The notes beneath the pieces were generated by a model, which saw only the letters and a list, made by a program, of their open reading frames with translations, made no database searches and was not told the DNA's origin. Below, piece by piece: positions 43,750 to 61,452 of a stretch of DNA of 64,000 nt. Origin of the DNA: Labilibacter marinus (lineage in GTDB: Bacteria > Bacteroidota > Bacteroidia > Bacteroidales > Marinilabiliaceae); assembly GCF_001659685.2 (NCBI RefSeq), contig NZ_LXYE02000008.1:1-64000 (forward strand), written 5' to 3'. How positions within the stretch are numbered: position 1 is the first letter of the stretch; the number at the start of each line of letters is the position of its first letter. A program made the translations under genes and the position numbers.

Positions 43750-43757
43750 AAAAAAGT

Positions 43758-43785
43758 AAGGGGTTTAAAAAACAACAACGTCTAA
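43758..43785 (+). promoter_or_regulatory. second copy of the candidate ECF promoter
   Basis: AGGGGTTTAA (43759-43768) and AACGTCTAA (43777-43785) match the element at 43115-43142 with identical spacing, 18 bp before ATG 43803. The 8 bases between the blocks differ, so only the blocks are conserved. Confidence 0.55.
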
Positions 43786-43802
43786 TATAGTAAAGGAGCA
43801 AG

Positions 43803-44144
43803 ATGATGAAGGATGTAAATAAAAATATAGAACGTGAGGTAAATCAAATTTTAGATAGTACTTCAGTAAAGGAGAGAGTAAGTACTTCGCCATTTTTTAC
43901 TACACGCATCATAGGTAAGGTAGAACAGTTAGAGGATAGCTCCGTGTTTTTTACCAGGTTAAGCGTAGCCTTGAAGCCAGTTTTAGTATTACTGGTTATT
44001 TTTAATGTGTTTAATTTTTACGTTTATAATAGTTCTAATGAGGTAGATGCTGAACAGTCTGATGGTTCTGAGATTGCCTTAAACTATTATTCAGCTTGGG
44101 ATAATGAGTTTATTTTATCGGATGAAATTATAGGTAACGAGTAA
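43803..44144 (+). CDS. small single-pass membrane protein, possible anti-sigma factor
   Basis: A 113-residue protein with an N-terminal charged cytoplasmic part (about 1-55), one transmembrane helix (about 58-75, LKPVLVLLVIFNVFNFYVY) and a short acidic periplasmic tail. There is no zinc-binding HxxxCxxC motif, so it is not a classical ZAS anti-sigma; topology and position directly after the sigma gene still suggest that role. ATG 43803 is followed by a second ATG; an AAGGAG ribosome site at 43793 fits. The 12-bp gap to the next gene shows an operon. Confidence 0.6.
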   Translation: MMKDVNKNIEREVNQILDSTSVKERVSTSPFFTTRIIGKVEQLEDSSVFFTRLSVALKPVLVLLVIFNVFNFYVYNSSNEVDAEQSDGSEIALNYYSAWDNEFILSDEIIGNE

Positions 44145-44156
44145 GGAGGAATTAAA

Positions 44157-44693
44157 ATGAATAAGAAGTTTTATATCATCATAATTGTAGTTTTAGTTAT
44201 ACTCAATATTTTTTCGTGGAGAATTTGGTGGGATGGACCAAAGCCCATGCTAAAACAACAACAGAAGGAAGGTGAATTCGAAAATAAGAGACGAGGTGGA
44301 GGGAAGAATTACTTTTTTAACAAACTAGAACTTAGCCAGCAACAAAAAAGTCAATTTGAGCAAAATAGTAAGCATTATTTTAAGCAAATAGAAGTGGTGA
44401 AGGATAGCATGAATGTGATACGTAGCAAGATGATGTTGAGTTTTAAAGAAGGAAATGATAGCGTGTTACAGCAAAGTATACTCAAAGAAATGGCTAACTA
44501 TAAACTTCAGTTAGAGGTATTAACCATGGAGCATTTTAATGGTTTACGAAATATTTGTAATGAGGAGCAGATAGAAGTGTTTGATAGCTTGTTAGTGCGT
44601 ATGGTAGAACATTCTCCAATGTTTAAGGACGGAATGAGAGGCAGAGGGAAGCACCACCAAGAGAGGGATGAGAAACGGAATCATCATCAGTAA
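44157..44693 (+). CDS. membrane-anchored Spy/CpxP-like periplasmic sensor protein
   Basis: A 178-residue protein with an uncleaved N-terminal anchor (about 4-22, FYIIIIVVLVILNIFSW) and a long helical periplasmic domain with LELSQQQKSQFEQNSKHYFKQIE ... LTMEHFNGLRNICNEEQIEVF, the LTxxQ-type repeats of Spy/CpxP/CnrX proteins. The C-terminus is His/Arg-rich (GRGKHHQERDEKRNHHQ), a possible metal-binding tail. A strong AAGGAGG ribosome site (44144-44150) precedes it, unusual in Bacteroidota. In the ECF operon it likely senses envelope damage or metal and signals to the small membrane protein. Confidence 0.75.
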   Translation: MNKKFYIIIIVVLVILNIFSWRIWWDGPKPMLKQQQKEGEFENKRRGGGKNYFFNKLELSQQQKSQFEQNSKHYFKQIEVVKDSMNVIRSKMMLSFKEGNDSVLQQSILKEMANYKLQLEVLTMEHFNGLRNICNEEQIEVFDSLLVRMVEHSPMFKDGMRGRGKHHQERDEKRNHHQ

Positions 44694-44737
44694 TTAAAAA
44701 TAGCTTAAGTATTTAAATATCAAAGTGAATTATAAAC

Positions 44738-44768
44738 GAGCGTTTGTGATAATAGGAAAAGTACGCTC
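44738..44768 (+). repeat. inverted repeat between the two Spy-like genes
   Basis: GAGCGT (44738-44743) and ACGCTC (44763-44768), followed by AAAATTTT. A weak terminator or attenuator; the long loop makes it uncertain. Confidence 0.3.
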
Positions 44769-44810
44769 AAAATTTTAGAAATAGAAGTTTAATTATTTAA
44801 AATTTGTGAT

Positions 44811-45365
44811 ATGAAGAAGGTAAGAGTATTTAGAGTGATGTTAGCAGTAGCTTTATTAGCAATATTAGTGGTTGGAACTGCAGCAGGGGTAAAAGATGGT
44901 CACAGAGCAAAAGGACCTAAAGGAGAATGTGGACCAAAACATGGTTTGAACCTATCAGATACGCAGAAAGAGGAAATGAAGGCACTTAGGTTAAGTTTTA
45001 CAAAGGAAATGACACCTTATAAAAATGACTTAGGAGTGAAAATGGCTGAGTTAAAAGCTGCTTCAACAGGTGATAATATTAATGAAAAAACAGTAAACAA
45101 TCTGTTAGATGAAATAGGTGATATTAAAACTTTAATGGCCAAAAAGAAATTTGCCAATAAGCAAAAGGTTAGAGCTTTATTAACAGATGATCAAAAAATA
45201 ATGTTCGACGCTCATACAGGTAAAGGTCATAAAAGAGGACATCAAGGTAAAGCTATGCGTCAAGGAAGAAAAGATGGAGATCGCCAATTTCATAAAGGAC
45301 AAAAAGGACATGGCGAAAGATTTAGTCAAGCAGAAGCTGAGAAAGAAATAGAAATTCAAGGATAA
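44811..45365 (+). CDS. Spy/CpxP-like periplasmic protein with basic, His-rich tail
   Basis: A 184-residue protein with a Sec signal (about 1-26, LAVALLAILVVGTAAG). The mature part has LNLSDTQKEEMKALRLSFTKEMTPYKNDLGVKMAELKAA and LLTDDQKIMFDAHTGKGHKRG, the two LTxxQ-like motifs of the Spy/CpxP chaperone family. The last 60 residues are rich in Gly, Lys and His (GHKRGHQGKAMRQG). It would act as an ATP-independent periplasmic chaperone or metal buffer. Last gene of the sigma operon, closed by a terminator. Confidence 0.75.
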   Translation: MKKVRVFRVMLAVALLAILVVGTAAGVKDGHRAKGPKGECGPKHGLNLSDTQKEEMKALRLSFTKEMTPYKNDLGVKMAELKAASTGDNINEKTVNNLLDEIGDIKTLMAKKKFANKQKVRALLTDDQKIMFDAHTGKGHKRGHQGKAMRQGRKDGDRQFHKGQKGHGERFSQAEAEKEIEIQG

Positions 45366-45512: not shown

Positions 45513-46412
45513 TTGGATATTTCTATTCAAAACCTGAATAAGGTTTATAAAAATAATTATCAGGCACTTACTGATGTTAATTTAGATATTGAATCTGGCA
45601 TGTTTGGTTTATTAGGACCTAATGGTGCTGGAAAATCTACGTTAATGAAAATTCTGGTTACTTTATTAGAACCCTCAGGAGGTGATATTTTAGTAAACGG
45701 GAAGCCATTAAGTAAAAACAGGCAAGATGTACGATCTATGATTGGTTACCTGCCTCAGGATTTCCGTTTTTTTGCCAAGTTAAAAACCTATGAGTTTTTA
45801 GATTATGCCGCTTCCTTAGCAGGGATAAGTAGCCGGAAAGAACGACGAAATGAGGTGGAACGCCTACTGGAACAGGTAGGTTTGTATGAGGTTCGAAATA
45901 GATATGCCAACAAGTTATCTGGAGGTATGAAACGTCGTTTAGGTATTGCTCAGGCCATTGTTGGTGACCCCAAAATAGTTATCGTGGATGAACCAACTAC
46001 AGGTTTGGATCCCGAGGAAAGAATTCGATTCAGAAATATTTTAGCAGACCTAAGTCAGCGCGATGTAATTATTGTTCTCTCTACGCATATTGTTGGCGAC
46101 ATTTCGAGTACTTGTACACAGATGGCTTTATTAAACGAAGGAAAAATTGGTTTTACAGGTAGTCCTAACGATTTTCTGGAATTATCGCAAGGTAAAGTGT
46201 GGCGAACACATGTAAACTTCGATCAAATGGAAGTGTTCAAGCAAAAATATCCTGTTATTACTACCATACCTGATGCCAATGGATATGAAGTAGAGTTAAT
46301 TGCGCCTAGTGCGGATGATTTTGTAGGAGAAGCCATTGCTCCCAACTTGGAGCATGCTTATGTATATTTTATGGAGTACGAAACCAATAATAGTTTATCA
46401 AGTCATGAGTAA
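45513..46412 (+). CDS. ABC transporter ATP-binding protein (ABC-2 type)
   Basis: A 299-residue nucleotide-binding subunit. Walker A GPNGAGKST at 35-43, Q-loop YLPQDF, signature KLSGGMKRR, Walker B IVIVDEPTTGLDP and H-loop STHIV are all intact. The start codon is TTG; no ATG fits upstream. The C-terminal extension (GKIGFTGSPNDFLELSQGKVW ...) is shared with the ATPase part of the RND fusion protein at 55797, so the two are paralogues. It overlaps the permease gene by 8 bp and is thus coupled to it. It should power the large permease encoded next. Confidence 0.9.
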   Translation: MDISIQNLNKVYKNNYQALTDVNLDIESGMFGLLGPNGAGKSTLMKILVTLLEPSGGDILVNGKPLSKNRQDVRSMIGYLPQDFRFFAKLKTYEFLDYAASLAGISSRKERRNEVERLLEQVGLYEVRNRYANKLSGGMKRRLGIAQAIVGDPKIVIVDEPTTGLDPEERIRFRNILADLSQRDVIIVLSTHIVGDISSTCTQMALLNEGKIGFTGSPNDFLELSQGKVWRTHVNFDQMEVFKQKYPVITTIPDANGYEVELIAPSADDFVGEAIAPNLEHAYVYFMEYETNNSLSSHE

Positions 46413-49400
46413 CCCTTTATTTACTGTTGCACGTTTCGAAGTTAAAACTCTATTAAGGAGTTGGTTCTTTCGTATTTTCTCTCTCATCGTCATCATATTT
46501 ATTTTATTCTTTAATATTATGGCTTCTACCGAGGTAGGTAGAGCAGGATGGCCAGATAGAATGTTATTGGGAGGTTTACCTTACATGAACCTTTGGGTAT
46601 TAAACATTGTACAGGCCATCATCGCAGTTTTCTTATCTGCTGATTTCTTAGGACGAGATAAAAAGCTAGATACAACTGAGGTGATATACGTAAGGAATAT
46701 GTCAAACTTTCAGTATGTATTTGGAAAGACCTTAGGAATATTGATCGTTTTTGGAGGGCTTAATTTATTGGTTCTTTCATTTACATTCATCATTAATTTA
46801 ATAAGTCCAGATGCAGGATTCAGTTTATTGACTTATTTCCTGTATCCCTTTATTATTTCCTTTCCTACTTTAGTGTTTATTTTAGGATTATCCTTTTTTG
46901 TGATGCAGTTGGTGCGTAATCAGGCAGTCACTTTTATTTTGGTATTGGGTTATATTGCCACTTGCGTTTTTTATTTAAAAGGGCAACATTACGGAGCTTG
47001 GGATTTTATCTCCTTTAACACACCCATGGCGTATTCGGCCTACGTTGGTTTTACCAATATAGCTCAGTTGGTTTTAATTAGAGGTGGATACTTTCTGATA
47101 GGCTTATCTCTTATATTGTTTACGGTATATAAATTACCCAGATTATCACAAACTAACTTCGGTAAAAAAATAATTATTGTACCAGCTTATATATGTTTAT
47201 TAATAGCCTTGTCAGGAATGGCATATTATCTTATACAAAGTGTTGATCAGGAAGAACTTATTCAAAGACAAGCCAGAATAGAAAAGCAACTTCCTATTGA
47301 GGCGGGTTATCAGATTTCGGATTATAAAATACAGTTAGAACACATTGGAAGTACAATAAGCGGAACGGTAAATTTTAAGGTAGAGAATACGACCACTTCA
47401 TTTCCTAACAAGTTAAAATTCTTCTTTAATAATGGACTTATTGTTGAAGAAGTGAAAATTGAAGAAGAGGCATCTAGTTATGAGCAGGATTTAAATATGC
47501 TGTATGTAAGCAATAAACACCTTCAGAATGCATCATTAAATATTAGCTTAAAATTTAAGGGAACACCGAACGATAAACTGGCATATTTTGATTTAAGTAA
47601 AGAGACGCGTGAAGCCTTGCATCGTTTTGACCCCTTAGTAGCTGATAAACGAAGTTGCTTTGCCACATCCAACTACTTATTTTTAATTAAGGAAACCTTT
47701 TGGTATCCTGTGGTGGCGGAAAGAAATGCATTACGCGTTCAAAAGTTTTTTACCTACGAGTTAAAAGTGAAATCATCCAATCAACTCAACTATATATCGC
47801 AAGGTAAGCAAGGTGAAGATGGTGATTGGGTTCATTTTACAGGAGATAAGCCTTATTCTAAAATTAGTTTAGTAGGAGGCCAATATCAAAGTAAAAGCAT
47901 TGAAGTAGATAGTGTAAATTATTCTGTAACCGCCCGAGAAGATGGTTTTTACTTCGAAAAGTATTTCGAGAACCTAAGCGACACATTGCCTAATTTACTG
48001 AAAGATATTAAAAAGGATTACGAACGTAAATTAGGTGTTGAATATCCTTATAACAGATTTTCTATTGTTGAGGTTCCTGTACATTTTTATGCATATTTCA
48101 GAGGTTGGAGCATCAGTAATGACAATACCCAACCCGAAATGATTTTTATTCCTGAATCAGGTTTAGGTTTAAGAGATTTTAATTTGGCTAGCAGGTTTAA
48201 TAACGAAGAAAGGCGCGTAAAGAACGATAAACTAGAATTATTGCCTAAAGAAATAGAAACCAATGTTTTTATGAATTTAGTGGGTAATACTTTTGCACAA
48301 CCTGTGCAAGGACGCCGATTTTTTGGTGGGAATAATGATGTAGGAAGAACCTTAGATAATTGGAGTGCTTTTTCCATGTTTCCGTTGTATTATAATTATG
48401 CCTATTCACTCGAGGAAAAGGATTTGCCATTTTTTAATATGTGTTTAGAATCATATATGCTAAATAGGGTGCATAGTTCTACGGGCAGGTTCGGAAGAAT
48501 GAGTTCTACGGATAAATCTATTCTGTTCTTAAATAAAAGCAAGGGTAGTCTGAAAGAATTGGCCGATGAGGAGGATTTAGAAATCAGCATTGCAGATATA
48601 ATTGTTACCGTTGGTAATAATCAATTTGCTACTGCTCAATCACGCATAGGGTCCGATAAATTTAGCTCTTTTGTAGATAGCCTGTTACAGGCCAACGCCA
48701 TGCAACAAATCGATCAAGAGATTCTTAGTCAACTGATTTCTGACGATACAGAACATGGTAATACCATTGATTCGGATACTGATGTTGAATTGCCTTCCTT
48801 TTTATTTGGAGAGAGTAAGGTGTATGAGTTTAAAGATGGCAATAGAAAACGATTTTATGTGGGCTTGCAAGTAGCTAATAAGGGCAATGTAGATGGTATT
48901 GTAAAAGCTTCTATAATGGGTGGCCGTGGCGGAGGTGGCCCAAGAGGAGGTCGTGGTGGTGGAGGTCCAGGTGGCCCGCCAGGAGGAAGAGGAATGACAG
49001 CGAGTTATGAGGAAATATACCTGATTAAAAAAGGACAGCATGTAAACATTGGTATTGTATTGGACAAAGCTCCTCGCATGATGTCGGTACATACTTATTT
49101 ATCTAAAAATGTACCTTCAGATACACGTTTCCCTCTGGCCGATTTTGAAGAGGCGCCATCGAGTTTTATGCCTAGGATAGGAATAACTCCATTAAGCCGT
49201 AAAATTAAACTAGTTCAGGATAACGAGATTATTGTAGATAATGAGCATGAGGGATTTTCTGTAGTAAATACAACGGGTCGCAAAACATTAAAGGAATATA
49301 TTTTGGAAATGAAAGATGAAGAAAATGTTGAAAATGGTTCTGAGTATAAAACATTGTCCTTTTTTCGACCTGCTTCGCGCTGGACTCCAGTATTAAACTC

Positions 49401-49758
49401 CTTTGCTTTTGGTGAGTTTACCAAATCAATGTCTTATAAAAAAGCTGGCGATGGCAATGCGGTAGCACAGTTCAAAGGCCAACTATCCGAAACTGGAAGG
49501 TATAATGTTTATGCTATGGTTCCTTCAAAGCGCATGGGTAATTTCCGAAATCAAGATCCTAAAGATGCCACTTATACTTATAAGGTGTACCATGATGATG
49601 GGGAATCAGAGGTAAAGGTGCCCATCGATCAGGATGCCTCAGATTGGGCTTTCTTGGGTGAGTTTTATTTATCCGATGGGGAAGCAATTGTAGAACTATC
49701 TGATTTAACTACAAAAAGAGTGGTTATTGCAGATGCTGTTAAATGGGTTAAACTTTAA
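46405..49758 (+). CDS. giant ABC-2 permease with M1-peptidase-like and golvesin-like domains
   Basis: A 1117-residue protein. The start at 46405 overlaps the ATPase stop; a frame upstream (46336) is inside the ATPase gene. Residues 1-290 hold about six to seven transmembrane helices of ABC-2 type. A long extracytoplasmic region follows with M1-aminopeptidase-like features (DYERKLGVEYPYNRFSIVEVP), but no HExxH zinc motif is visible, so peptidase activity is unlikely. A Gly/Arg/Pro-rich linker (about 839-863) precedes a C-terminal golvesin-like beta domain (about 1015-1117, GRYNVYAMVPSKR ... VVIADAVKWVKL). It would pair with the ATPase at 45513. The extra domains suggest handling of a protein or large envelope substrate. 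Confidence 0.85.
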   Translation: MSNPLFTVARFEVKTLLRSWFFRIFSLIVIIFILFFNIMASTEVGRAGWPDRMLLGGLPYMNLWVLNIVQAIIAVFLSADFLGRDKKLDTTEVIYVRNMSNFQYVFGKTLGILIVFGGLNLLVLSFTFIINLISPDAGFSLLTYFLYPFIISFPTLVFILGLSFFVMQLVRNQAVTFILVLGYIATCVFYLKGQHYGAWDFISFNTPMAYSAYVGFTNIAQLVLIRGGYFLIGLSLILFTVYKLPRLSQTNFGKKIIIVPAYICLLIALSGMAYYLIQSVDQEELIQRQARIEKQLPIEAGYQISDYKIQLEHIGSTISGTVNFKVENTTTSFPNKLKFFFNNGLIVEEVKIEEEASSYEQDLNMLYVSNKHLQNASLNISLKFKGTPNDKLAYFDLSKETREALHRFDPLVADKRSCFATSNYLFLIKETFWYPVVAERNALRVQKFFTYELKVKSSNQLNYISQGKQGEDGDWVHFTGDKPYSKISLVGGQYQSKSIEVDSVNYSVTAREDGFYFEKYFENLSDTLPNLLKDIKKDYERKLGVEYPYNRFSIVEVPVHFYAYFRGWSISNDNTQPEMIFIPESGLGLRDFNLASRFNNEERRVKNDKLELLPKEIETNVFMNLVGNTFAQPVQGRRFFGGNNDVGRTLDNWSAFSMFPLYYNYAYSLEEKDLPFFNMCLESYMLNRVHSSTGRFGRMSSTDKSILFLNKSKGSLKELADEEDLEISIADIIVTVGNNQFATAQSRIGSDKFSSFVDSLLQANAMQQIDQEILSQLISDDTEHGNTIDSDTDVELPSFLFGESKVYEFKDGNRKRFYVGLQVANKGNVDGIVKASIMGGRGGGGPRGGRGGGGPGGPPGGRGMTASYEEIYLIKKGQHVNIGIVLDKAPRMMSVHTYLSKNVPSDTRFPLADFEEAPSSFMPRIGITPLSRKIKLVQDNEIIVDNEHEGFSVVNTTGRKTLKEYILEMKDEENVENGSEYKTLSFFRPASRWTPVLNSFAFGEFTKSMSYKKAGDGNAVAQFKGQLSETGRYNVYAMVPSKRMGNFRNQDPKDATYTYKVYHDDGESEVKVPIDQDASDWAFLGEFYLSDGEAIVELSDLTTKRVVIADAVKWVKL

Positions 49759-49776: not shown

Positions 49777-51246
49777 ATGTTTATCAATAAAATAAAAATA
49801 CGCTTGATTTTAGGAGCTATTCTATTTTCATCAGGACTTTATGGCCAACGGATTTTGTCCTTACAGCAGTCCATTGAGCAAGCCATGAAAACCAGTCCGC
49901 GTATACAAGGTTCCAGACTGTCTTTGATACAAAGTGAAGAGAATCTAAAGGCGCAAAGAGCCACATTAAAATCTAACTTTAATTTAAATGTTAGGCCATT
50001 AGAGTATTCGCATGATAGAATTTTTAATGAACAGTTTTCTGAATGGTATACCGTAGAGAACTATAGTAGTTTGGGTAATTTTAGAGTATCACAACCAATT
50101 TTATGGACTGATGGGGTACTATCATTAAATAATTCATTACAATATCGTGAGAATTCAAGTACAGGAGGTAATTCTTCTGGTTTTAAGGGTTTCAGTAATA
50201 GTTTAGATTTAACACTTGAGCAACCTTTATTTACTTATAACAGAACTAAACTGGAATTAAAGGAACTTGAGTTAAGTTATGAAAATGCCACATTAAGTTA
50301 TGCTTTACAGGAATTAAGTGTGGAGAATATGGTGACACAAGCTTTCTTTAAAGTGTATCAAACTCAAATGGCTTTGAATACTTCTCGTGAGGAATATCAA
50401 AACCGTAAAGAGAGTTATGATATCATCAAAAATAAGGTAGATGCAGGACTAACAGCGAAAGAGGAACTTTATCAGGCGGAGCTTGATTTAATGACCAGTG
50501 AATCCTCTATGAAAGATAATGAAGTGGCCTTTGAAAATGACAAGGACAATTTTAAGCAGATGCTAGGAATACCCTTAGAAGAAGAAATTATGGTATTGGC
50601 CGATGTTTCTGTGTTGCCTGTAGATGTTCAGTTGAATATAGCCATTGAACAGGGTTTATCTAATAGAATGGAGCTGAGACAACGTCAAATAGCTATTGAA
50701 AACGGACAGTTTGATATTATTAAAACCAATGCTTTAAATGAGTTTAAAGGGGATTTAGTATTAAAATTTGGCTTAATTGGTGAGAATGAGGAATTTCAAA
50801 ATATGTTTAACGAACCTACCAATAACCAGCAAGTTTCATTAGGATTAATTATTCCTCTGTGGGATTGGGGAGAAAAGAAAGCCAGACTAAAGGCGGCTCA
50901 AGCGGCGTTAGAACAAACACAAAATGATTTACGAGACGAAGAGGTGGATATTAAATTAACCATTCGTCAGGTATTTAGAAGTTTAGAGAACAACCTACGC
51001 CAAATTAGTATTGCCCGAAAAAATCTAGAGAATGCTGAGTTGACCTACGAAATTAATTTAGAGAAATACAAAAATGGTGATTTAACCAGTATGGATCTAA
51101 ATCTGGTACAAAACCAATTGACCACAAAAAAGAATGGTTTAACCAATTCCATCATCAGTTATAAACTGGAATTACTGAATATGAAAATTCAGAGTATGTA
51201 CGACTTTGAAAATCAAGTTCCAGTAACACCTCAATTCAAAAAATAA
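49777..51246 (+). CDS. TolC-family outer-membrane efflux channel
   Basis: A 489-residue outer-membrane factor with a Sec signal (SSGLYGQ, cleavage about residue 23). Two repeats of long helices and strands are seen (LSLQQSIEQAMKTSPRIQGSRLSLIQSEENLKAQRATLKS and NLENAELTYEINLEKYKNGDLTSMDLNLVQNQL), the TolC/OEP plan. It forms the trimeric exit duct for the membrane fusion protein and RND pumps encoded downstream, and possibly for the ABC parts. It starts 18 bp after the giant permease. Confidence 0.93.
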   Translation: MFINKIKIRLILGAILFSSGLYGQRILSLQQSIEQAMKTSPRIQGSRLSLIQSEENLKAQRATLKSNFNLNVRPLEYSHDRIFNEQFSEWYTVENYSSLGNFRVSQPILWTDGVLSLNNSLQYRENSSTGGNSSGFKGFSNSLDLTLEQPLFTYNRTKLELKELELSYENATLSYALQELSVENMVTQAFFKVYQTQMALNTSREEYQNRKESYDIIKNKVDAGLTAKEELYQAELDLMTSESSMKDNEVAFENDKDNFKQMLGIPLEEEIMVLADVSVLPVDVQLNIAIEQGLSNRMELRQRQIAIENGQFDIIKTNALNEFKGDLVLKFGLIGENEEFQNMFNEPTNNQQVSLGLIIPLWDWGEKKARLKAAQAALEQTQNDLRDEEVDIKLTIRQVFRSLENNLRQISIARKNLENAELTYEINLEKYKNGDLTSMDLNLVQNQLTTKKNGLTNSIISYKLELLNMKIQSMYDFENQVPVTPQFKK

Positions 51247-51258
51247 AAATCTACTCTT

Positions 51259-52314
51259 ATGATTAAAAGATATATTCCCATCGCATTATTAGGTATGAGC
51301 TTAGTAGCTTGTAACGATCAACAAAATAAATTCTCTGCAGATATTTCGATACCAGTTACGGTAGAGGAGGTGAGTCGGGATAATATTCAGGAAGTATTTA
51401 CCGCTACAGGTACAATTGTATCGGAGTTTGAGAGCCTTCAAACCACCGAAGCTTCTGGAGAATACTATATACAAATCAATCCTCGTACGGGTAAAAAGTA
51501 CAAAATGGGGGATGAAGTAAAGAAAGGCGAAATTATTATTCGTATTGAAGATGAAGAATACGAAAACAACGTCAACATTGAAGGTGCTAAAATTGATTTG
51601 GATATTTCTGAGATGGAATACGAAAAGCAAAAAGCTCTTTACGAAAAAGGAGGTGTTACTCTACGTGAGAAAGTAACAGGAGAAAAGCAATTGGTTTCAG
51701 CACAAAAAACTTACGAAAATGCCATTATTCAATTGGATAAGATGAGGGTGTCCGCTCCATTTAACGGAGTGATCACTGATCTTCCATACTTTTCGCAAGG
51801 GGTTAAAGTGGAGCAAGGTAAAGAGGTGCTTCAAATAATGAGCTATAAAGAAATGGTGATGGATATGATGTTACCAGAAAGCCAAATCACGAAAGTATCC
51901 CTAAATCAACAAGCTTGGATTACGAATTACTCTTTACCAGAAGATACTTTGTTTGGCAAACTAAAAGAAATATCACCAGCCATTGATGTGGAGTCTAGAA
52001 CTTTTAAAGGACGACTAGCTATAAGTAATAACGAAGCCAAATTAAGGCCAGGTATGTTTGTGAAGGCAGATATTATTGTGGATCAAAAGGACAGTGTTGT
52101 AGTTATTCCTAAAGATGCCATTTTAGTGCGCACCGACGGTAAAGTAGTATTTATAGCACGAGACAAAACGGCCGCTGAAAGAAAAATAGTTACAGGGATG
52201 GAAAATAATGGTAAGGTCGAAATTCTTGAAGGACTAAAACCTGAAGAACGATTAATTATTAAAGGTTTCGAGACGCTTAAAGATCGTTCTAAAATTAAAG
52301 TTTTAAATAAATAG
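51259..52314 (+). CDS. RND-type membrane fusion protein (periplasmic adaptor), lipoprotein
   Basis: A 351-residue lipoprotein (lipobox VAC, Cys18). The adaptor plan is clear: beta strand and lipoyl half (GEYYIQINPRTGKKYKMGDEVKKGEIIIRIED), a helical hairpin (about 95-145), the second lipoyl half (VSAPFNGVITDLPYFSQGVKVEQGKEVLQI), beta barrel (KLRPGMFVKADIIV) and membrane-proximal domain. It links the TolC protein with an inner-membrane pump. Only one adaptor is encoded for two RND genes, so it may serve both. Confidence 0.93.
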   Translation: MIKRYIPIALLGMSLVACNDQQNKFSADISIPVTVEEVSRDNIQEVFTATGTIVSEFESLQTTEASGEYYIQINPRTGKKYKMGDEVKKGEIIIRIEDEEYENNVNIEGAKIDLDISEMEYEKQKALYEKGGVTLREKVTGEKQLVSAQKTYENAIIQLDKMRVSAPFNGVITDLPYFSQGVKVEQGKEVLQIMSYKEMVMDMMLPESQITKVSLNQQAWITNYSLPEDTLFGKLKEISPAIDVESRTFKGRLAISNNEAKLRPGMFVKADIIVDQKDSVVVIPKDAILVRTDGKVVFIARDKTAAERKIVTGMENNGKVEILEGLKPEERLIIKGFETLKDRSKIKVLNK

Positions 52315-52474: not shown

Positions 52475-55400
52475 ATGAAAAAACTTGCACAGTTTTCTGT
52501 CAATTATCCAGTTACGGTAGCCATGATTATTTTGGGTATTGTATTGCTCGGGTTTATATCATTTTCTCGTTTAGGTACCGATTTATTTCCGGATTTAAAT
52601 AACCCACGCATCGTGGTGGAGGTTCAGTCGGGTGAACGCCCCCCAGAGGAAATAGAAAAGCAATTTGTGGAACCCATGGAGGGAACCATTATTCGTCAAC
52701 GAGGCGTGGTTAACGTGGGCTCGTTAAGTAAGGTGGGCTCAGCGCAAATAACCGTTGAGTACAATTGGGATCAGGATATGGATGAGGCTTTCCTGGATTT
52801 ACAAAAGGCACTCACTACTTATAGTCAAAACGAAGATGTAGAAGAGTTAAATATCTATCGTAACGACCCCAATGCTTCTCCAGTTATGTTGGCGGCAGTT
52901 TCCAACGAAAATATTACCGATATGGATGAGCTGCGAAAGGTAGCTCAAAACTATATTCGTAACGAGTTAATTAGAGTAGATGGTATTGCTGATGTTCGTT
53001 TATCGGGTGACGAAAGTAAGGAGATTCTCATCGAGACAAATCCTTATTTATTGGAGTCGCATAATATTACTTCATCTACTATAGTTTCTAAAATTGAGAG
53101 TTTTAATCGCAATGTTTCTGGAGGCTCAATAGAGGAAGCAGGACAAAAATATATTATCAAAGGAGTCAGTATATATCAATCGCCAGAGGATTTAGGTAGA
53201 CTAGTGGTAGGCCGAACCTTGGAGCAAGATGAAAAAGGACAAACTAAAGAAGTTCCTTTGCTATTGAGCGATGTGGCCAATATCTCTTATAAAAATCAAG
53301 ACCCTGTAAATATTGTTCGATTAAACGGACAAAGGTGTATTGGATTGTCTATTTATAAAGAAACCAAATACAATACGGTAGCTGCCATTGAAGCACTTAA
53401 CGAAGGATTCGATCAAATAAAAAAAGGACTGCCTGGATACGAGATTACGGTCATTAAAAATCAGGGTAAGTTTATCGATGATGCTATTAGCGAAGTTGAG
53501 GATAGTGCTTTGATTGGTATATTGTTCGCAGTATTGGTTTTATTCTTATTCTTGCGCAGAATTGGAACTACTCTTGTGGTAAGTGCTGCTATTCCTATTT
53601 CTATTATTGCCACTTTTAACTTGATGTATTTTAATGGGCTTACGCTCAATATAATGACTTTAGGAGGTTTGGCGTTGGGAGCAGGTATGCTGGTGGATAA
53701 TGCCATAATTGTGGTAGAAAACATTTTTAGCATGCTAGAAAAGGGCAAGCCGCTCCGCGAGGCTGCCGTTGAAGGAACGGCAAAAGTAGGAGGAGCACTA
53801 GTGGCATCTACATTAACTACGATTGTTGTGTTCTTACCAATTGTTTATTTACATGGAGCATCTGGTGAATTATTTAAAGATCAAGCCTGGACGGTGGCGT
53901 TTTCTTTGCTTTCATCGCTATTTGTAGCCATCTTAATCATACCCATATTAAGTGTTTTGTTACTGGGTAAGCGACCCGAAAAATCTATCCGAAAAGAGAA
54001 AACTTATCCCAGGTATACTCAGTTTTTGAGCGGGATGATTGAGAAACGTTACTTGGTTATTTTGGCCTCTGTAGTTTTAGTTGTACTAAGCTATTTTTCT
54101 GTTTCGTATGTGGGAAGCGAATTTATGCCGCAGGCTAAAACCCGCGAGTTTTCCATTGATGTTACCTTACCTGCTGGTGTTGGTTTGCAACGTACGGCTT
54201 CTACCATACATGCCATGGAAGAGATGATTAGAGAAGGACTGGAGGAGCATGTTGAACATGTATACACGCATTCAGGGCCACAATCGGATTTATCGGGAAG
54301 TGATAAAAGTGTATTTGAAGGAGAGAATACTGGGTTTATTAAAGTTACCCTTAAAGAAGATACACCGTATTCTACTGATGATTTTATTCCTGTTTTAAGC
54401 GAATTGTTTGCAGGTATTCCTGATTTAGAGTTAGAATATATTCAGGATGAAACGGCCTTGGGTGAAATATTAGGTAATGATTCAGCACCCATTGTGATTG
54501 AGGTAATTGGCGATGACTTGGACAAGTTAGATAAGTTAACTGATGAGGTATATGCCTTACTGAAGCAGGAAGAGGAATTATATAACGTAAAAAGCTCTTT
54601 TGAGGATGGCGTTCCAGAAGTGAATGTGGTGATAGACCGTTATAGAGCAGGTATTTTTGATATTAATGCAACCAGCATCATTACTCAATTACAAGAGTTT
54701 TTAATGGGGAAAGATGCGGGAAGTATAGAGAGTGAAGGAGAGCTTACCGACATAACCCTAAAAATGCCGGATTACGAATTAAAAGAATTAGAGAATTTCG
54801 TGATAGAAAATGGTCAGGAGACCTACCGTTTAGGTGAGTTAGCACAAATTACAGTAGGTTCATCGGCTAAGGAGGTCATCAGAAATAATCAAAATAGGAT
54901 AGGAAGAATATCTGCTCATATGCGAGGGAATATGCCAGTCGATAAATTAGCTTTACGGATAGATGATACCATGAGTAAGATTGAATTCCCAACTGGTTAC
55001 CGCTATCAAATAAAAGGAGATGAAATGATGCGTAAAGAGTCTTTCGGAAGTCTTTCTTTTGCATTGCTTTTATCTATCATTTTAGTGTACATGGTTATGG
55101 CATCGCAATTTGAATCATTAATTCATCCATTTACCATTTTATTAACTATTCCATTGGCGGGAGTTGGTGCTATTGCTGCCTTTTTAATTCTCGGTAAGTC
55201 TTTAAACATTATGGCTTATATCGGTTTGGTAATGCTGGCTGGTATTGCAGTAAACGACTCCATTATTTTGGTAGATGCCATCAATCAATTTAAGAAAGAA
55301 GGTTTATTACTGAAGGATGCTATTATTGCTGCAGCCAATACTCGGTTGCGACCAATTTTTATGACTAGTCTAACCACTATTTTAGGCTTGTTACCTATGA

Positions 55401-55558
55401 CTATTGGATTGGGAGAAAGCGCAGCTATCCGTTCTTCAATGGCTATTGCTGTTATTGGGGGGCTGGTAACATCAACTTTATTAACATTGGTTGTAATTCC
55501 ATGTGTGTATTACATTTTCGATGGTGTTTTTAAAAGAGGAGAAAAGGTAGAAGGGTAA
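52475..55558 (+). CDS. RND efflux pump, inner-membrane subunit
   Basis: A 1027-residue pump with twelve transmembrane helices in two halves and two large periplasmic porter/docking loops, the AcrB plan. TM4 carries LVDNAIIVVEN with D408 followed by Asn, and TM10 IAVNDSIILVD with Asn where AcrB has the essential Lys. It thus belongs to the VDN clade rather than the classical VDD/K drug pumps, yet keeps one Asp for proton transfer. It exports hydrophobic or amphipathic molecules through the adaptor and TolC protein encoded just upstream. Preceded by a heptamer repeat next to the start codon. Confidence 0.93.
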   Translation: MKKLAQFSVNYPVTVAMIILGIVLLGFISFSRLGTDLFPDLNNPRIVVEVQSGERPPEEIEKQFVEPMEGTIIRQRGVVNVGSLSKVGSAQITVEYNWDQDMDEAFLDLQKALTTYSQNEDVEELNIYRNDPNASPVMLAAVSNENITDMDELRKVAQNYIRNELIRVDGIADVRLSGDESKEILIETNPYLLESHNITSSTIVSKIESFNRNVSGGSIEEAGQKYIIKGVSIYQSPEDLGRLVVGRTLEQDEKGQTKEVPLLLSDVANISYKNQDPVNIVRLNGQRCIGLSIYKETKYNTVAAIEALNEGFDQIKKGLPGYEITVIKNQGKFIDDAISEVEDSALIGILFAVLVLFLFLRRIGTTLVVSAAIPISIIATFNLMYFNGLTLNIMTLGGLALGAGMLVDNAIIVVENIFSMLEKGKPLREAAVEGTAKVGGALVASTLTTIVVFLPIVYLHGASGELFKDQAWTVAFSLLSSLFVAILIIPILSVLLLGKRPEKSIRKEKTYPRYTQFLSGMIEKRYLVILASVVLVVLSYFSVSYVGSEFMPQAKTREFSIDVTLPAGVGLQRTASTIHAMEEMIREGLEEHVEHVYTHSGPQSDLSGSDKSVFEGENTGFIKVTLKEDTPYSTDDFIPVLSELFAGIPDLELEYIQDETALGEILGNDSAPIVIEVIGDDLDKLDKLTDEVYALLKQEEELYNVKSSFEDGVPEVNVVIDRYRAGIFDINATSIITQLQEFLMGKDAGSIESEGELTDITLKMPDYELKELENFVIENGQETYRLGELAQITVGSSAKEVIRNNQNRIGRISAHMRGNMPVDKLALRIDDTMSKIEFPTGYRYQIKGDEMMRKESFGSLSFALLLSIILVYMVMASQFESLIHPFTILLTIPLAGVGAIAAFLILGKSLNIMAYIGLVMLAGIAVNDSIILVDAINQFKKEGLLLKDAIIAAANTRLRPIFMTSLTTILGLLPMTIGLGESAAIRSSMAIAVIGGLVTSTLLTLVVIPCVYYIFDGVFKRGEKVEG

Positions 55559-55617: not shown

Positions 55618-55758
55618 ATTATGCCCCAAAGGGCCTAAAGCATTAGCCCAGAGCAACGCCCTGAAAATATGACGTAAAAAATACTCGTCGCATCACTATA
55701 TTGAGTGATTCGCAAACTGAATTTGCGATGAAATAAATATCAAACTAATAACAAGTGT

Positions 55759-55793
55759 CTTGTTACTTGATACTTGAATCTTGATACTTTGAA
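55759..55793 (+). repeat. heptamer tandem repeat before the RND-ABC fusion gene
   Basis: CTTGTTA, CTTGATA, CTTGAAT, CTTGATA and CTTTGAA are in perfect 7-bp phase and end 3 bp before ATG 55797. Same unit family and same position as the array before the first RND gene. Confidence 0.65.
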
Positions 55794-55796
55794 ATA

Positions 55797-58700
55797 ATGA
55801 ACTTTATTATACATAGAAAAGTACTCATCAGCATGCTGTTTATAGCACTATCCATGTTAGGAATAGTGTCCTATAATAACCTGTCTGTGGAGTTATATCC
55901 CGATACGGAGCTACCCATGCTTTTTGTGCAGATAGTGGGCGATACAGAATCTGACCCAAAATATGTAGAGCAAGAAGCGGTCATACCCATGGAAGGTGTG
56001 GTTGGTACTCTGGAAGGTATCGAGAAAATGGAATCGCGGGTTAACCCAGGCAGAGCGACTATTATTGTTTACCTGACCAAGGATGTGGATTTTAAATATG
56101 CTTATTTAAAATTGGCGGAAAAGATAAGTGCTTCCCAAAGTCTACTGCCAGAGGATTACAGAGCCACGGTCATTAAAATGGACATGCAGCAGTTTTCCAA
56201 TCAGTTTATGCAGCTGCAAGTATTGGGCGAAGGTGATGTAGATAGAGTACGGGCTATAACGGATGAGAGAATCAGCGATAAGCTTGAAAATATTGATGGT
56301 GTTGCAGGTATTGAGGTTTATGGAGGACGCGAAAAAACAGTAGAGATTACTTTAAATGAAGATAAACTGGAATCCTTAGGGTTAACCACATCTGAGGTAC
56401 GCAGGAAAATACTCAATAACGAAGGTCAAAAAGCTTTTGCGGGTAGAGTGGTTAACGAAGGGCAGTATTTATTTGTTAATGTTGAAGGTGAGTATAATAA
56501 AATACAGGATTTAGAAAATGTGGTTATTTCGGCAGATGGGCCTATTTTACTGAAAGATATTGCCCAAATCGTTTTCGGAGTAAAAGAACAAACATCTTAT
56601 AGCCGTGTAAATGCTAAAGAAGCGGTAACCATTCGTGTGGCACGCGAGTCTACCGTTAATCAAATTGAATTATCGGGCAGGATAAAGGATGAGGTAGAGC
56701 GCCTAAATGGCGAGCTTGGCTCTGAGGGAGTAGAAATAGCCATTACGTCCAATTCTGCCGAAACCATGGAAGAGAATATTGCTAGCATTATTGATCTAGC
56801 GCTTATTGGTAGCCTGCTGGCAGTGTTTATTTTATGGATATTCTTAAAAAACATACCATTGGTTTCTTTGGTGATGTTATCTATTCCTATTTCTGTTTTT
56901 TCTGCATTTAATATATTTTATGCCTTTGGTATTACCATCAACACCTTAACCTTAATAGGGATAGCGTTGGCAGTGGGTATGCTCATTGACAACAGTATTG
57001 TGGTGATGGAGAATATATATCGAGTCGCCTCGACAGAAAAGGATAGGGACAAGGCGGTGACTATGGGAACCAGAGAAGTATGGCGAGCTATTTTGGCAGC
57101 TACTTTAACTACTATCACGGTATTTTTACCCTTTGTATTTTCATCCAATATTTACTTTAAGTTAGTCGCCAAAAATATCAGTGTTTCTATTGTAGGTACA
57201 TTAATTATTTCGCTGGCGGTGGCACTCATGTTAATTCCTATGATGACACACAGTGTGTTGTGGTATGGAAAGACCAATGTGCAAAAGCGATTAAGACGAT
57301 TGCCTTTGCATAATCGCATGATTCAAGGCTATTTGGTGCTCTTGAAAAATGCACTTCGTTTACCTGCTCGAACCATCAATATGGCGGTGATAACCTTCTT
57401 TTTAACGATTGGTATTAGCTTGGTGGTGAGTTTGCAAGTGAGTAAAGAAGTGGAAACACCCGAATATATTATTGATATTGAAAGACCCTCAGGTTCTACT
57501 TTAGAAGCGACCGACGAAATGGTAAAGGAGCTAGAGGAGCGTTTGGCTAAGGTTGGCGAGCATGATAAAATCATCAGTCAGGTTTACGAAGAAAAAGCTA
57601 GCCTAATAGTTAAGCTAAAGGATGAATATAAAAAAGAGTCGGACCGTTCTCTGGGAGAAATTAAAGCTGATATTCAATCAAAATTATACGGTTATACCGA
57701 TTCTGAAATAAATCTAGAGCAAGGTGGAGGAACCTCAAATGGAGGTGGTTCTGGTTTTGGCGATAATCCAGGAATGGGTTTAATGGCCATGTTTGGAATT
57801 GGACAGCAGCAAGAGAGCGTGGTTATTAAAGGAGAAGATTTTGATAAGATGTTGCTGTTGGCCGAGGACATTAAATACATACTAGAAGATAATCTGGAAG
57901 AATTAAGGTCGGTGCGAGTAAGCGCGGGTTTTCCTCGTCCTGAAATGCATTTGGAGTTCGATCCTGGTTTGATGAGTATGTATGGCGTAACGCCGCAGAA
58001 TGTGCTTTCAGAGCTTTCTACATTCCGTAACGAGATACAATCAGGAGGAATGCTACGTGTTGACAATGAAGAGTACGACATTGTTATGAAGCAAGAAAAT
58101 CCTTATGATGATGATGAGATTCCGCCAAAAACGTATGAGGATTTAGAAGGTTTAAATGTTATCTCTAACTCAGGCTCTTTGGTAGCTTTAAACGATTTTT
58201 CTGATATTATATATTCCACAGGTCGTGCAGAAATATTGCGCGTTAACCAGCAAAAAGAAATCACGGTAAGATATTCTTTCAATGCAGAAATAAACGATTC
58301 AAAAAACTTGTTGGAACAAGCTCGTTTAGATGTTGACGAATTAATTGCCGAGGTAAACTTACCTTCAGGAACAGCCATTGAGGTGGTGCACGAAGAAGAC
58401 CAGTTTAGCGAGTTTTATTTTTTAATAGGAATGGCCTTTGTGCTTATTTTAATGATATTAGCTTCGGTATTTGAATCCTTTGTAACGCCTTTTGTGATGC
58501 TATTCTCCATTCCTTTGGCGGCAATAGGTTCATTTTTAGGGTTGATATTTACAGGGCATTCTTGGCTTAACTTAAATACGCTAATCGGCTTTTTAATCCT
58601 TTTGGGTATCGTAGTCAACAATGGAATTATTTTAATCGATTACGCCAATATTCTGCGAAAGCAAGGCATGCGGCATTCTCGCGCTTTATTGCAAGCAGGT

Positions 58701-60512
58701 ATATCGCGCGTTCGACCTATATTAATTACAGCCGCCACTACTATCATAGCAATGTTGCCTTTGGCCATGGGTAAATCGGAATACGTAGGTAGTTTGGGTG
58801 CTCCATTTGCCATTACTGTTGTTGGTGGTTTGTTGGTCAGTACTTTATTAACATTGGTGTTTATTCCTACGTTTAGTTTTGGTTTGGAAACTTCTATTCG
58901 ATGGATTAAATCATTAGATATCGTTTATAAACTCATTATATTTATTTCGTGGGTAGTGGGCATTGTCTTGATTCACTTTGTATTTAATCATTCCTTTGTT
59001 TGGATGCTGGTAGAATACTTTGCCTGTGTGGTAGGAGTACCTGCCGTGATGTTCTTTATTTTAACGAGTCTTCGTCAAGCACAAGCTGAGCTGATAAAAC
59101 CTGATGAGGCGATTACCATTCAACTGCAAAATGTAGTGAAGATTTACGATAGAGATAATCGTTTTATGCGTGAGTGGAAAACGGGTAAAAAGTACGGAGC
59201 AAAAGAACAATCGGAGAAAGGAGTAAAAAGTTATCTGGAAGGAATTATCTGGCAAATACCTTTAATGGGTTTTCTGGTTTGGATGACTTGGTTCTATTTA
59301 GAAACCTCACTTTGGACTTTTATATTTCTGTTTGTGAGTTACTTTATTTATTTATCGTATATAGCACATCTGCGCCAGTGGCCTGATGCAAAAGGTAGGT
59401 TTAAAAAGATTTTTGCACACAATGGTATTTTAAATCGTATTGTGTTATGGGCTTACCCTGCCATCAGTTTAGGGTTGTTTGCACATAAATTCAATAGCAT
59501 AGCATCTTCTATTGTTTGGGCTGGTTTATGGTATTTAGGTATTTATATTTCGGTAACAGGTAAAAAGCTTATTCGTGAAAATATTAATGTAGAAAGACTA
59601 AAAGGTCGTTTTTCTGGCATTCGCCGAACATGGTATATTTTAGTTCGTTCCATTCCACTTATAGGTAAACAAAAGGTGCCGTTTAAAGCTCTAAAGGGAG
59701 TTAGTTTAACCATGCAAAGTGGTATGATTGGTTTGCTGGGACCTAATGGTGCTGGTAAAACTACCATCATGCGTATCATTTGCGGAATCCTGGATCAAAG
59801 CTATGGTAAGATATTCGTGAATGGTTTAGATTCCTTAAAGTACCGTGAAGAGCTTCAGGGATTGATAGGTTATTTGCCGCAGGAGTTTGGTTCATATGAA
59901 AACATGAGTTCCTTTGAGTTTTTAGATTATATGGCATTGCTAAAAGGTTTAAGAAAAAAGGAAGTGCGCTTTGCCAGAGTGGAGTATGTGCTTAAGGCAG
60001 TGCATATGTGGGATAGAAAAGATGCGGCTATAGGTTCCTTTTCGGGAGGAATGAAACAGCGCATTGGTATTGCACAAATTATGCTTCACTTGCCGCGTAT
60101 ATTGGTAGTGGATGAACCAACAGCGGGACTAGACCCAAGAGAACGTATTCGTTTTCGTAACCTGTTGGTTGAGCTAAGTAGAGACCGAATTGTGATATTT
60201 TCTACACATATTATTGAGGATATTTCCAGCTCGTGTAATCAAGTGGCTGTGATGAAAAAAGGAGACCTAAAATATTGGGGTATTCCTTCTGAGCTTTCAA
60301 AAGTTACACAAGGTAAAGTATGGACTTTTGAAGTGCCCAAAGAAGAGTTTGAAACAGTGAACAAACAATTTCAAGTCGTTCATCATATTGGTACAGGAGC
60401 AACCGTACGGGTTCGTGTATTAAGCAACGATAAACCTGTAGAAGATGCAGAATCTGTTCACTCTAGTCTGGAAGATTCGTATCTATGGCTATTGAGAAAT
60501 GAAGTATCGTAG
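55797..60512 (+). CDS. RND efflux pump fused to an ABC ATPase (hybrid transporter subunit)
   Basis: A 1571-residue uninterrupted protein. Residues 1 to about 1035 are a full RND pump: twelve transmembrane helices, two porter regions, TM4 LIDNSIVVMEN (D398-N399) and TM10 VVNNGIILID, plus a Gly-rich loop near residue 650. Two more helices follow (about 1045-1090). Then AITIQLQNVVKIYD (1105-1118) looks like the first strand of an ABC ATPase; about 175 residues with four transmembrane helices (1150-1254) intervene; the ATPase resumes at FKALKGVSLTMQSG (1296), with Walker A GPNGAGKT (1315-1322), signature SGGMK (1416-1420), Walker B D1439/E1440 and H1471. All ATPase motifs are intact. A separate ABC-2 permease gene lies downstream. 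No stop or shift breaks the join. Confidence 0.9.
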   Translation: MNFIIHRKVLISMLFIALSMLGIVSYNNLSVELYPDTELPMLFVQIVGDTESDPKYVEQEAVIPMEGVVGTLEGIEKMESRVNPGRATIIVYLTKDVDFKYAYLKLAEKISASQSLLPEDYRATVIKMDMQQFSNQFMQLQVLGEGDVDRVRAITDERISDKLENIDGVAGIEVYGGREKTVEITLNEDKLESLGLTTSEVRRKILNNEGQKAFAGRVVNEGQYLFVNVEGEYNKIQDLENVVISADGPILLKDIAQIVFGVKEQTSYSRVNAKEAVTIRVARESTVNQIELSGRIKDEVERLNGELGSEGVEIAITSNSAETMEENIASIIDLALIGSLLAVFILWIFLKNIPLVSLVMLSIPISVFSAFNIFYAFGITINTLTLIGIALAVGMLIDNSIVVMENIYRVASTEKDRDKAVTMGTREVWRAILAATLTTITVFLPFVFSSNIYFKLVAKNISVSIVGTLIISLAVALMLIPMMTHSVLWYGKTNVQKRLRRLPLHNRMIQGYLVLLKNALRLPARTINMAVITFFLTIGISLVVSLQVSKEVETPEYIIDIERPSGSTLEATDEMVKELEERLAKVGEHDKIISQVYEEKASLIVKLKDEYKKESDRSLGEIKADIQSKLYGYTDSEINLEQGGGTSNGGGSGFGDNPGMGLMAMFGIGQQQESVVIKGEDFDKMLLLAEDIKYILEDNLEELRSVRVSAGFPRPEMHLEFDPGLMSMYGVTPQNVLSELSTFRNEIQSGGMLRVDNEEYDIVMKQENPYDDDEIPPKTYEDLEGLNVISNSGSLVALNDFSDIIYSTGRAEILRVNQQKEITVRYSFNAEINDSKNLLEQARLDVDELIAEVNLPSGTAIEVVHEEDQFSEFYFLIGMAFVLILMILASVFESFVTPFVMLFSIPLAAIGSFLGLIFTGHSWLNLNTLIGFLILLGIVVNNGIILIDYANILRKQGMRHSRALLQAGISRVRPILITAATTIIAMLPLAMGKSEYVGSLGAPFAITVVGGLLVSTLLTLVFIPTFSFGLETSIRWIKSLDIVYKLIIFISWVVGIVLIHFVFNHSFVWMLVEYFACVVGVPAVMFFILTSLRQAQAELIKPDEAITIQLQNVVKIYDRDNRFMREWKTGKKYGAKEQSEKGVKSYLEGIIWQIPLMGFLVWMTWFYLETSLWTFIFLFVSYFIYLSYIAHLRQWPDAKGRFKKIFAHNGILNRIVLWAYPAISLGLFAHKFNSIASSIVWAGLWYLGIYISVTGKKLIRENINVERLKGRFSGIRRTWYILVRSIPLIGKQKVPFKALKGVSLTMQSGMIGLLGPNGAGKTTIMRIICGILDQSYGKIFVNGLDSLKYREELQGLIGYLPQEFGSYENMSSFEFLDYMALLKGLRKKEVRFARVEYVLKAVHMWDRKDAAIGSFSGGMKQRIGIAQIMLHLPRILVVDEPTAGLDPRERIRFRNLLVELSRDRIVIFSTHIIEDISSSCNQVAVMKKGDLKYWGIPSELSKVTQGKVWTFEVPKEEFETVNKQFQVVHHIGTGATVRVRVLSNDKPVEDAESVHSSLEDSYLWLLRNEVS

Positions 60513-60519
60513 TGAAAAA

Positions 60520-60567
60520 GGTGCAAGGGGGTATAAGGTACAAGGGTACAAAGGCACAGGGTGCAAA
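60520..60567 (+). repeat. roughly octameric tandem repeat after the fusion gene
   Basis: GGTGCAAG, GGGGTATAA, GGTACAAG, GGTACAAA, GGCACAG and GGTGCAAA follow each other with lengths 8, 9, 8, 8, 7 and 8. It is related to the octamer array at 55570-55617 and starts 8 bp after the stop codon. Confidence 0.5.
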
Positions 60568-60666
60568 AAAAATAAAAGTATATCGGATTAAGTGCCTATT
60601 GTAACGCTATATCGCTAATACTGGTGTAATGTATAAAAAGTAATTAGAGCTCCTCGTTTTTAAGGA

Positions 60667-60759: not shown

Positions 60760-61452
60760 ATGAAAAATTTAGTAAACATCATAAAATATAACTTGAAGAT
60801 AATTTTCGGTAATCGCTTTGTTTATTTTTTGGGAGCGTCGCTTATATTTTATCTGCTAATAACTGGTATTGCCTTGTTCTCATCCGACTTAATCAGCGTG
60901 GGCGATGTATATTATCAGCTGATTTTTCCAGGAATATTATTGATGTTTTTTCCTACCGCTTTTGGAATTCAGAACGACGAAGACGCTCGTATTTTAGAAA
61001 TATTATTTGGGATACCTAACTACCGCTATAAAGTATGGTTGGTCAGGCTATGTATTATTTTTGCTATGGTATTTGTTATTGTCACCATCCTGGCCTTTTT
61101 TAATAATTACTTGTTGGTTGAACTTCCTTTTATGGAGATGGGTGCGCAGCTTATTGTAGTGCTTATTTTCTTTGGAACGCTTGGCTTCTTATTCAGTACC
61201 ATGGTTAAAAATGGCAACGGAACAGCGGTAGTTATGGTTGTGATAGGACTGGCATTATGGTTTCTTCATGCCTTTATTAGTGCTTCAAAATGGAATGTGT
61301 TTTTAAACCCATTTTCTACATCCGGCAGTATGAGTGAGTCGCTATATCAAACCATGTTATTTCAAAATAGGTTAATTATTATTTCGGTTTCGGTAGTGGC
61401 CATTTTATGGGGATTAATAAATTTGCAACGCAGAGAGAGGTTTATTAAGTAA
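60760..61452 (+). CDS. ABC-2-type transporter permease
   Basis: A 230-residue inner-membrane protein with six predicted transmembrane helices and no soluble domain (for example FVYFLGASLIFYLLITGIALF, YQLIFPGILLMFFPTAFGI, IIFAMVFVIVTILAFFNNYL, LIVVLIFFGTLGFLFSTM). The pattern FGIQNDEDARILEILFGIPN between helices 2 and 3 is typical of ABC-2 permeases. It has no separate ATPase gene beside it; the ATPase domain at the C-terminus of the RND fusion protein, encoded just upstream, is the natural partner. Last gene of the export locus. Confidence 0.85.
   Translation: MKNLVNIIKYNLKIIFGNRFVYFLGASLIFYLLITGIALFSSDLISVGDVYYQLIFPGILLMFFPTAFGIQNDEDARILEILFGIPNYRYKVWLVRLCIIFAMVFVIVTILAFFNNYLLVELPFMEMGAQLIVVLIFFGTLGFLFSTMVKNGNGTAVVMVVIGLALWFLHAFISASKWNVFLNPFSTSGSMSESLYQTMLFQNRLIIISVSVVAILWGLINLQRRERFIK

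Follow-up and report, generated by a model that had tools for sequence, protein, structure and literature searches.

RND and ABC transporters are viewed as separate superfamilies with separate fuels, an ABC exporter requiring two ATPases and an RND pump three protomers. In CnrYXH-CnrCBA, an ECF sigma factor and a Metal_resist-type periplasmic protein adjoin an RND export operon, and we know of no ABC ATPase, ABC-2 permease or extra transmembrane helices in the RND system MdtABC. Mixed RND trimers have a precedent in MdtBC, which forms B2C according to PMC4338810. Among ABC transporters, MacB is an ATPase fused to its own permease, as described in PMC8277102.

The locus described here belongs to Labilibacter marinus and was analysed within a stretch of 64,000 nucleotides (contig NZ_LXYE02000008.1), referred to as the window. 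It places an RND pump and an ATP-driven motor on one chain. As this fused gene recurs in one and the same export operon across dozens of genomes, the protein appears to be a genuine composite exporter of a type apparently without earlier description. Elsewhere in the window, an aldehyde ferredoxin oxidoreductase gene (4392-6308) suggests anaerobic metabolism.

The fused protein and its split ATPase

Gene F (55797..60512, +) is a single open frame of 1571 aa which starts with ATG and, according to ORF calling, is free of internal stops. Pfam recognises ACR_tran at residues 2-1026 (E 2.6e-165, profile positions 3-1016 of 1021) and ABC_tran at residues 1299-1443 (E 1.9e-25, profile positions 1-137 of 137), which bears out the claim of an earlier, sequence-only reading that an RND pump and all ABC motifs share one uninterrupted frame. 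The RND permease part (residues 1-1026, 55797..58874, +), delimited by Pfam, PDB and relay alignments, comprises the complete ACR_tran sequence profile; the PDB alignments agree, and its best PDB sequence match is MdtB (9lyq). The window's own genome yielded 58 matches to F, and both parts were covered solely by the self-match.

Between the two recognised domains, residues 1045-1295 gave no Pfam match. Family-averaged hydropathy and K+R counts place two extra transmembrane helices in residues 1027-1104 (58875..59108, +), with centres at about 1052 and 1080, followed by a segment (residues 1106-1118, 59112..59150, +) that carries the first strand and the A-loop of the ABC domain, detached from the rest and assigned by profile windows, conservation and AlphaFold. 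A membrane insertion then occupies residues 1119-1291 (59151..59669, +), and the remainder of the ABC ATPase, supported by Pfam, conservation, AlphaFold and Foldseek, extends over residues 1292-1571 (59670..60509, +). The sequence-only reading had proposed four transmembrane helices in an insertion of about 175 residues: hydropathy recovers these four, centred at about 1159, 1180, 1220 and 1244, and adds the two helices ahead of the strand, which had been missed. Loops predicted to be cytosolic are enriched in basic residues, judging from the same family-averaged hydropathy and K+R counts. Of 56 aligned fused proteins, 52 have an insertion of 162-186 residues; in the other four it measures 106 (two proteins), 205 and 222 residues. 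The two short insertions (L167, L168) contain about two hydrophobic segments each, those of L168 lying close together and being judged by eye. A hidden ABC-2 domain was also considered for the insertion and rejected, as it has no profile similarity to the neighbouring membrane proteins G or B and no Pfam match.

From Y1117 to the resumption of the ATPase core near residue 1296, the chain runs for about 178 residues. The strand was located by setting 19-residue windows of the linker before the ATPase core in 20 proteins and scoring them with a profile built from 42 further ABC ATPases. In 19 of the 20, the highest gain in ATPase-profile score came from the window that ends at Y1117; in the remaining protein (L051), the top window overlaps the strand and ends earlier. 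Best-window gains were 6.7-11.9 bits, against 0.8-6.6 bits for the best window elsewhere, with a margin of merely 0.4 bits for the Y1117 window in L039. AlphaFold modelling of residues 1093-1571 used 54 alignment rows, 50 of which were ATPase cores lacking the detached strand, and returned a mean pLDDT of 85 and a pTM of 0.70. Residues 1108-1117 were predicted as a confident strand (block pLDDT 96 for 1103-1112 and 75 for 1113-1122) even though the 50 added rows lacked it, in agreement with the earlier assignment of the segment to the ATPase fold. Within the insertion, block pLDDT was 45-74 across residues 1123-1242. An earlier AlphaFold model of residues 996-1571, built from four rows of F proteins, had a mean pLDDT of 46 and was set aside. 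The separation of the first ATPase strand from the core by a membrane insertion is well supported; judging by confidence values rather than coordinates, strand 1108-1117 of the model probably pairs with the core.

Block pLDDT of 94-98 across residues 1303-1562 and the Foldseek search, whose best matches were ABC ATPases (top TM_1403, 4yer, E 8.4e-23), assign this part to the ABC ATPase fold. Walker A, Q-loop, signature, Walker B with the catalytic Glu, H-switch and A-loop aromatic are all present, and the motif sites listed in the sequence-only reading (Walker A 1315-1322, signature at 1416-1420, D1439/E1440 and H1471) were recovered, the signature as SGG at 1416-1418. In the alignment of 56 fused proteins, which represent 54 genomes once two known duplicates are merged, the Walker A lysine, Q1362, SGG, D1439, E1440 and H1471 are invariant (56/56), as are K1115 and Y1117 of the detached strand segment. 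The sole variation among the ATPase motif positions is T or S at residue 1322, the last Walker A position. Apparently, the A-loop of an ABC ATPase can accommodate a membrane domain with the catalytic residues still conserved. In NCBIfam, the ATPase part comes closest to the ABC models GldA and DrrA, in both cases under the cut-off. A defence-system library matched the ATPase part of F and not the fusion, and Rfam gave no match at gathering score.

Conservation of the fusion and its operon

A search of 71 genomes from the window's family for the linker (residues 1027-1301) gave matches in 35, of which 32 have it within one frame of 1555-1591 aa. The three exceptions are a frame of 882 aa cut by a contig start (G015), pieces on two contigs (G017) and a broken frame (G022). 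In the last, at locus L052 (6118-18841), the F frame is broken in its ATPase part and gene B is in three pieces, reflecting either decay or sequencing error. Within the window's genus, eight of nine genomes, the window's included, have the linker, the exception being G045. On a broader scale, a linker profile matched at least 51 of 393 genomes sampled from the order. For the class the count was at least 6 of 396, including two genomes that do not belong to the order, and for the phylum at least 4 of 296, including one that does not belong to the class; these samples overlap and include the window's genome, and the counts are minima because few candidates per genome were scored.

Searched alone (E <= 1e-140), the RND part has orthologues in 31 of the 247 order-level genomes sampled, and 28 of these lie inside fused frames of 1515-1640 aa. 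In two others (G084, G092) the RND frame reaches the contig end. In the third (G157, L204) homology ceases with about 224 bases of the contig left and a stop follows, the linker and ATPase being found at the start of another contig, which is compatible with a break in the assembly as well as with one in the gene itself. The sequence-only reading had named homologues with RND and ABC parts always in separate genes as evidence against the fusion; no such orthologue was found among the 31 order-level RND orthologues, of which those outside fused frames are all broken at or near contig ends, or in the other genomes of this non-exhaustive sample. Its concern about an assembly join is likewise excluded, because fused frames of the same length recur in dozens of independent assemblies.

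Two more groups of the phylum have fusions, as does one Gammaproteobacteria MAG, TMED1 (L115, G1081). The latter carries two near-identical full-length fusions on two contigs, 29% identical to F over residues 4-1567, with the strand LTVTHLHKKYG, an insertion of similar length and intact ATPase motifs. One copy (L187) reads A-B-D-E-F to the contig end and the other (L188) B-D-E-F-G, the twin operons reflecting either duplication or strain mixture. Across 229 sampled Gammaproteobacteria genomes, the full linker was present in the TMED1 MAG alone, the other 36 matches being confined to the ATPase end. Two further genomes, G1079 and G1080 (L205, L206, L207), hold a similar second subfamily with the gene order ABDEFGC, the TolC gene standing last, and three 35%-identical copies of E, each adjoining a fused F; the host of these copies is uncertain because contamination is 7 and 8%. 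For the TMED1, G1079 and G1080 copies, horizontal transfer or binning error is possible. Plasmids yielded RND-part matches in two records (E <= 1e-80) and no fusion. A pattern search of genome contigs with two generic ATPase patterns returned at least 80 loci and is uninformative on frequency. Among the matches listed, L059-L061 cover the fusion linker, and L065 and L115 contain the A gene of an operon with a fused F; the genome of L064 likewise has such an operon, its F being interrupted by contig ends.

F is part of a forward-strand operon. Gene A (45513..46412, +; start codon uncertain) encodes a separate ABC ATPase recognised by Pfam and 41% identical to the fused ATPase. It is overlapped by the ATG, at 46405, of gene B (46405..49758, +), a large membrane protein with a C-terminal Golvesin_C domain in Pfam. 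This domain was found in the window and in all six relatives scanned, including the gammaproteobacterial L187; in some relatives, B also has weak, below-cut-off ABC-2 and M1-peptidase-like Pfam matches. Next come C (49777..51246, +), a TolC-type outer-membrane factor (OEP, Pfam), D (51259..52314, +), a periplasmic adaptor (RND_mfp, HlyD_D23; Pfam and NCBIfam), and E (52475..55558, +), a second RND permease of 1027 aa identified by Pfam and neighbourhood. A tripartite set is encoded together, with C as OEP, D as RND_mfp and E and F as RND, and its order is kept in relatives. Downstream of F, gene G (60760..61452, +) encodes a short ABC-2-like permease of 230 aa with about six hydrophobic segments, assigned by neighbourhood, an alignment of 23 proteins and hydropathy.

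Gene order was compared across 59 loci with an F frame above 1300 aa, a set which excludes the window, includes L052 with its broken F and has mechanically placed ORF starts. The pairs L057/L059, L187/L188 and L205/L206 each represent one genome; L057 (G018) and L059, a Carboxylicivirga sp. MAG of the window's family, were counted as one because the alignment figures of their genes are identical. Counting recognised same-strand genes, the order is BCDEFG in 39 loci, ABCDEFG in eight, ABDEFGC in three and shorter or slightly longer in nine, and A precedes B in all 20 genomes whose upstream DNA was examined. E is the next recognised gene upstream of F in 58 of the 59 loci and G the next downstream in 57. 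L054 is without E in its 2.9 kb upstream, which hold one ORF without assignment, and the 551 bases between its F and the end of the contig contain no G, while L187 is without G in its last 209 bases and its twin L188 has it. Median gaps, measured from the last sense codon, are 16 bases for E-F and 13 for F-G, with stop-codon overlap in 19 of 58 and 12 of 57 cases, respectively. F-G gaps reach 1313 bases in some loci, with intervening ORFs without assignment in at least L040 and L047. The window itself has gaps of 238 bases between E and F (55559-55796) and 247 bases between F and G (60513-60759), against a median below 20 in relatives, and GGTACAAGGG-like repetitive tracts follow F there. E co-occurs with F: at >=50% identity it was present in 32 of 247 genomes, which comprise all 31 with F (equal draw) plus G345, which has a linker-profile match.

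G matches ABC-2 models weakly and below cut-off (PF12698 in two and PF12679 in one of the 23 aligned proteins, with a match also at L188), and it gave no PDB sequence match. E80, P86, Y88 and K91 are invariant in the alignment of 23, and we take them to resemble an ABC-2 coupling-helix motif. G is likely to be the partner permease of the fused ATPase.

Upstream of A, Pfam identifies an ECF sigma factor (43168) and two LTXXQ/Metal_resist-like proteins (44157, 44811) over 43168..45365 (+); the product of 44811 is above the Metal_resist and LTXXQ cut-offs, and the LTXXQ match of 44157 is below cut-off. Eight of 20 relatives have matches to all three genes upstream of A. A ninth (L218) has the sigma factor and one Metal_resist-like protein, below cut-off; in several others, the genes upstream of A are unrelated. 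These three genes are possible regulators of the operon and, by analogy with Cnr, the system may serve envelope or metal stress if such a neighbourhood is a guide. Of the components of CnrYXH-type regulation (ECF sigma factor, Metal_resist sensor and anti-sigma factor), the sigma and sensor-like genes were recovered here. On the opposite strand (39993-43006, -), a PAS histidine kinase gene (40781) stands beside an RsmE-like methyltransferase gene. The kinase lies near the operon in 10 of 20 relatives, with the RsmE-like gene adjoining in nine. A two-component pair beside the operon was rejected, the supposed response regulator at 39993-40700 being an RNA methyltransferase.

A proposed mechanism and its rivals

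F is probably an RND subunit bearing the ATPase of an ABC-2-type exporter, with G as the membrane half and E, D and C completing a composite trans-envelope exporter. For this arrangement we infer the pairing of F with G, the mixed trimer, the direction, the energy coupling and the substrate. The fused ATPase would lie on the cytosolic C-terminus of the RND permease of F, held at the membrane by the helical insertion in its beta1-beta2 loop. E and F would make the RND part, most simply as a mixed trimer, with D as adaptor and C as TolC-type duct. ATP hydrolysis by F would power G, which would extract or flip the substrate at the inner membrane. Since the ATPase and F share one chain, release is proposed to occur beside the RND-adaptor-TolC conduit, and the RND part would then move the substrate outward. 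A trimer of two F and one E would supply exactly two ATPases, that is, one ABC dimer, and A together with B may constitute another ABC unit within the system. The sequence-only reading had offered two ideas. The first, a coupling of ATP to RND transport, is possible. The second was that the fusion ties an ATPase serving a separate ABC permease to the tripartite exit path; on gene content this appears to fit best, because G is the next recognised gene downstream in nearly all loci. A bolder and less probable version is a new class of dual-energy transporter in which the ATPase of F would be mechanically coupled to the RND cycle, the ABC-2 permease and an E1F2 trimer with its one ATPase dimer forming one machine from the inner membrane to the outside.

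The fuel of the RND part bears on these readings. Relay positions were mapped via an alignment to MdtB and carry what we take to be the AcrB numbering (D407, D408, K940, R971). In AcrB, these residues constitute the proton relay (PMC8277102). F keeps the D407 position and the R971-type R.RP motif in 55 of 55 proteins, with Asn at the K940 position in all 55 and at the D408 position in 51; E has Asn at the D408 position in 51 of 51 and at the K940 position in 50 of 51. Proton drive of E and F is uncertain because the D408/K940 pair of AcrB is absent from both. Four other RND loci examined in the window's genome comprise one of DD/K type (L004), one of DN/N type (L008) and two untypable by pattern (L006, L007). 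The suggestion that ATP replaces a lost proton relay was weakened, since the DN/N pattern also occurs in L008 and in E, a protein without an ATPase, and is then no sign of ATP replacement.

Direct driving or gating of the RND trimer by the ATPase of F, replacing or supplementing protons with G only loosely linked, is unlikely. It draws on the presence of RND and ATPase on one chain in 28 of the 31 order-level orthologues, the others being broken at or near contig ends, and on the Asn at two of three AcrB relay positions in F; however, that relay pattern is shared with E and L008, and a G following F in 57 of 59 loci is expected for an ordinary ATPase-permease pair. The fusion could instead be a device setting stoichiometry or location, the ABC transporter (F ATPase and G) and the RND pump being energetically independent, each with its own substrates. 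We regard this as unlikely: each module looks complete alone and the insertion varies in sequence and in length (106-222 residues in 56 proteins), but the usual gene order provides a single adaptor and a single TolC for both, and G, with its 230 aa, is presumably too short for a large adaptor-docking periplasmic domain.

The ATPase might also be a regulatory domain which senses the energy state or gates pump assembly and performs no transport work, given that the separate ATPase A could serve G as well. Little probability attaches to this, as the residues of hydrolysis are invariant in 56 of 56 proteins, whereas some loss might be expected in a purely regulatory domain. An artefact, by assembly join or by read-through across two genes, is hardly credible: although the F frame is broken in two relatives (L052 of G022, and G157 near a contig end), same-length fused frames occur in dozens of assemblies and the fusion is found in a second, more distant subfamily.

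Comparison with known transporters

The sequence-only reading had claimed that no characterised protein joins RND and ABC domains, and neither such a protein nor a description of an RND-ABC fusion was found in the open-access papers searched. The conserved RND-ABC protein makes the coupling of ATP and protons in one export machine directly testable, as well as the idea that ABC stoichiometry is set by a mixed RND trimer.

The Cnr system controls a plain RND pump, while the operon described here encodes an RND-ABC hybrid, and the three regulator-like genes are matched together in only 8 of the 20 relatives, the sigma factor in nine. A likeness to MacAB-TolC lies in the combination of an ABC transporter with an adaptor and TolC (PMC5985334); unlike the present operon, MacAB-TolC has no RND component. 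MdtABC resembles it in having two adjoining RND genes and one adaptor, although MdtB carries DD and K at the relay positions and F carries DN and N. The ATPase is close to those of ABC-2 systems (NosDFY, ABCA, GldA/DrrA), the Foldseek list including NosDFY(L) chains and ABCA proteins. In contrast to ABC-2 exporters, the ATPase of F is joined to an RND pump and has a membrane insertion in its beta1-beta2 loop. The component families are known, and their combination in a single chain, the split ATPase and the fixed operon are apparently new.
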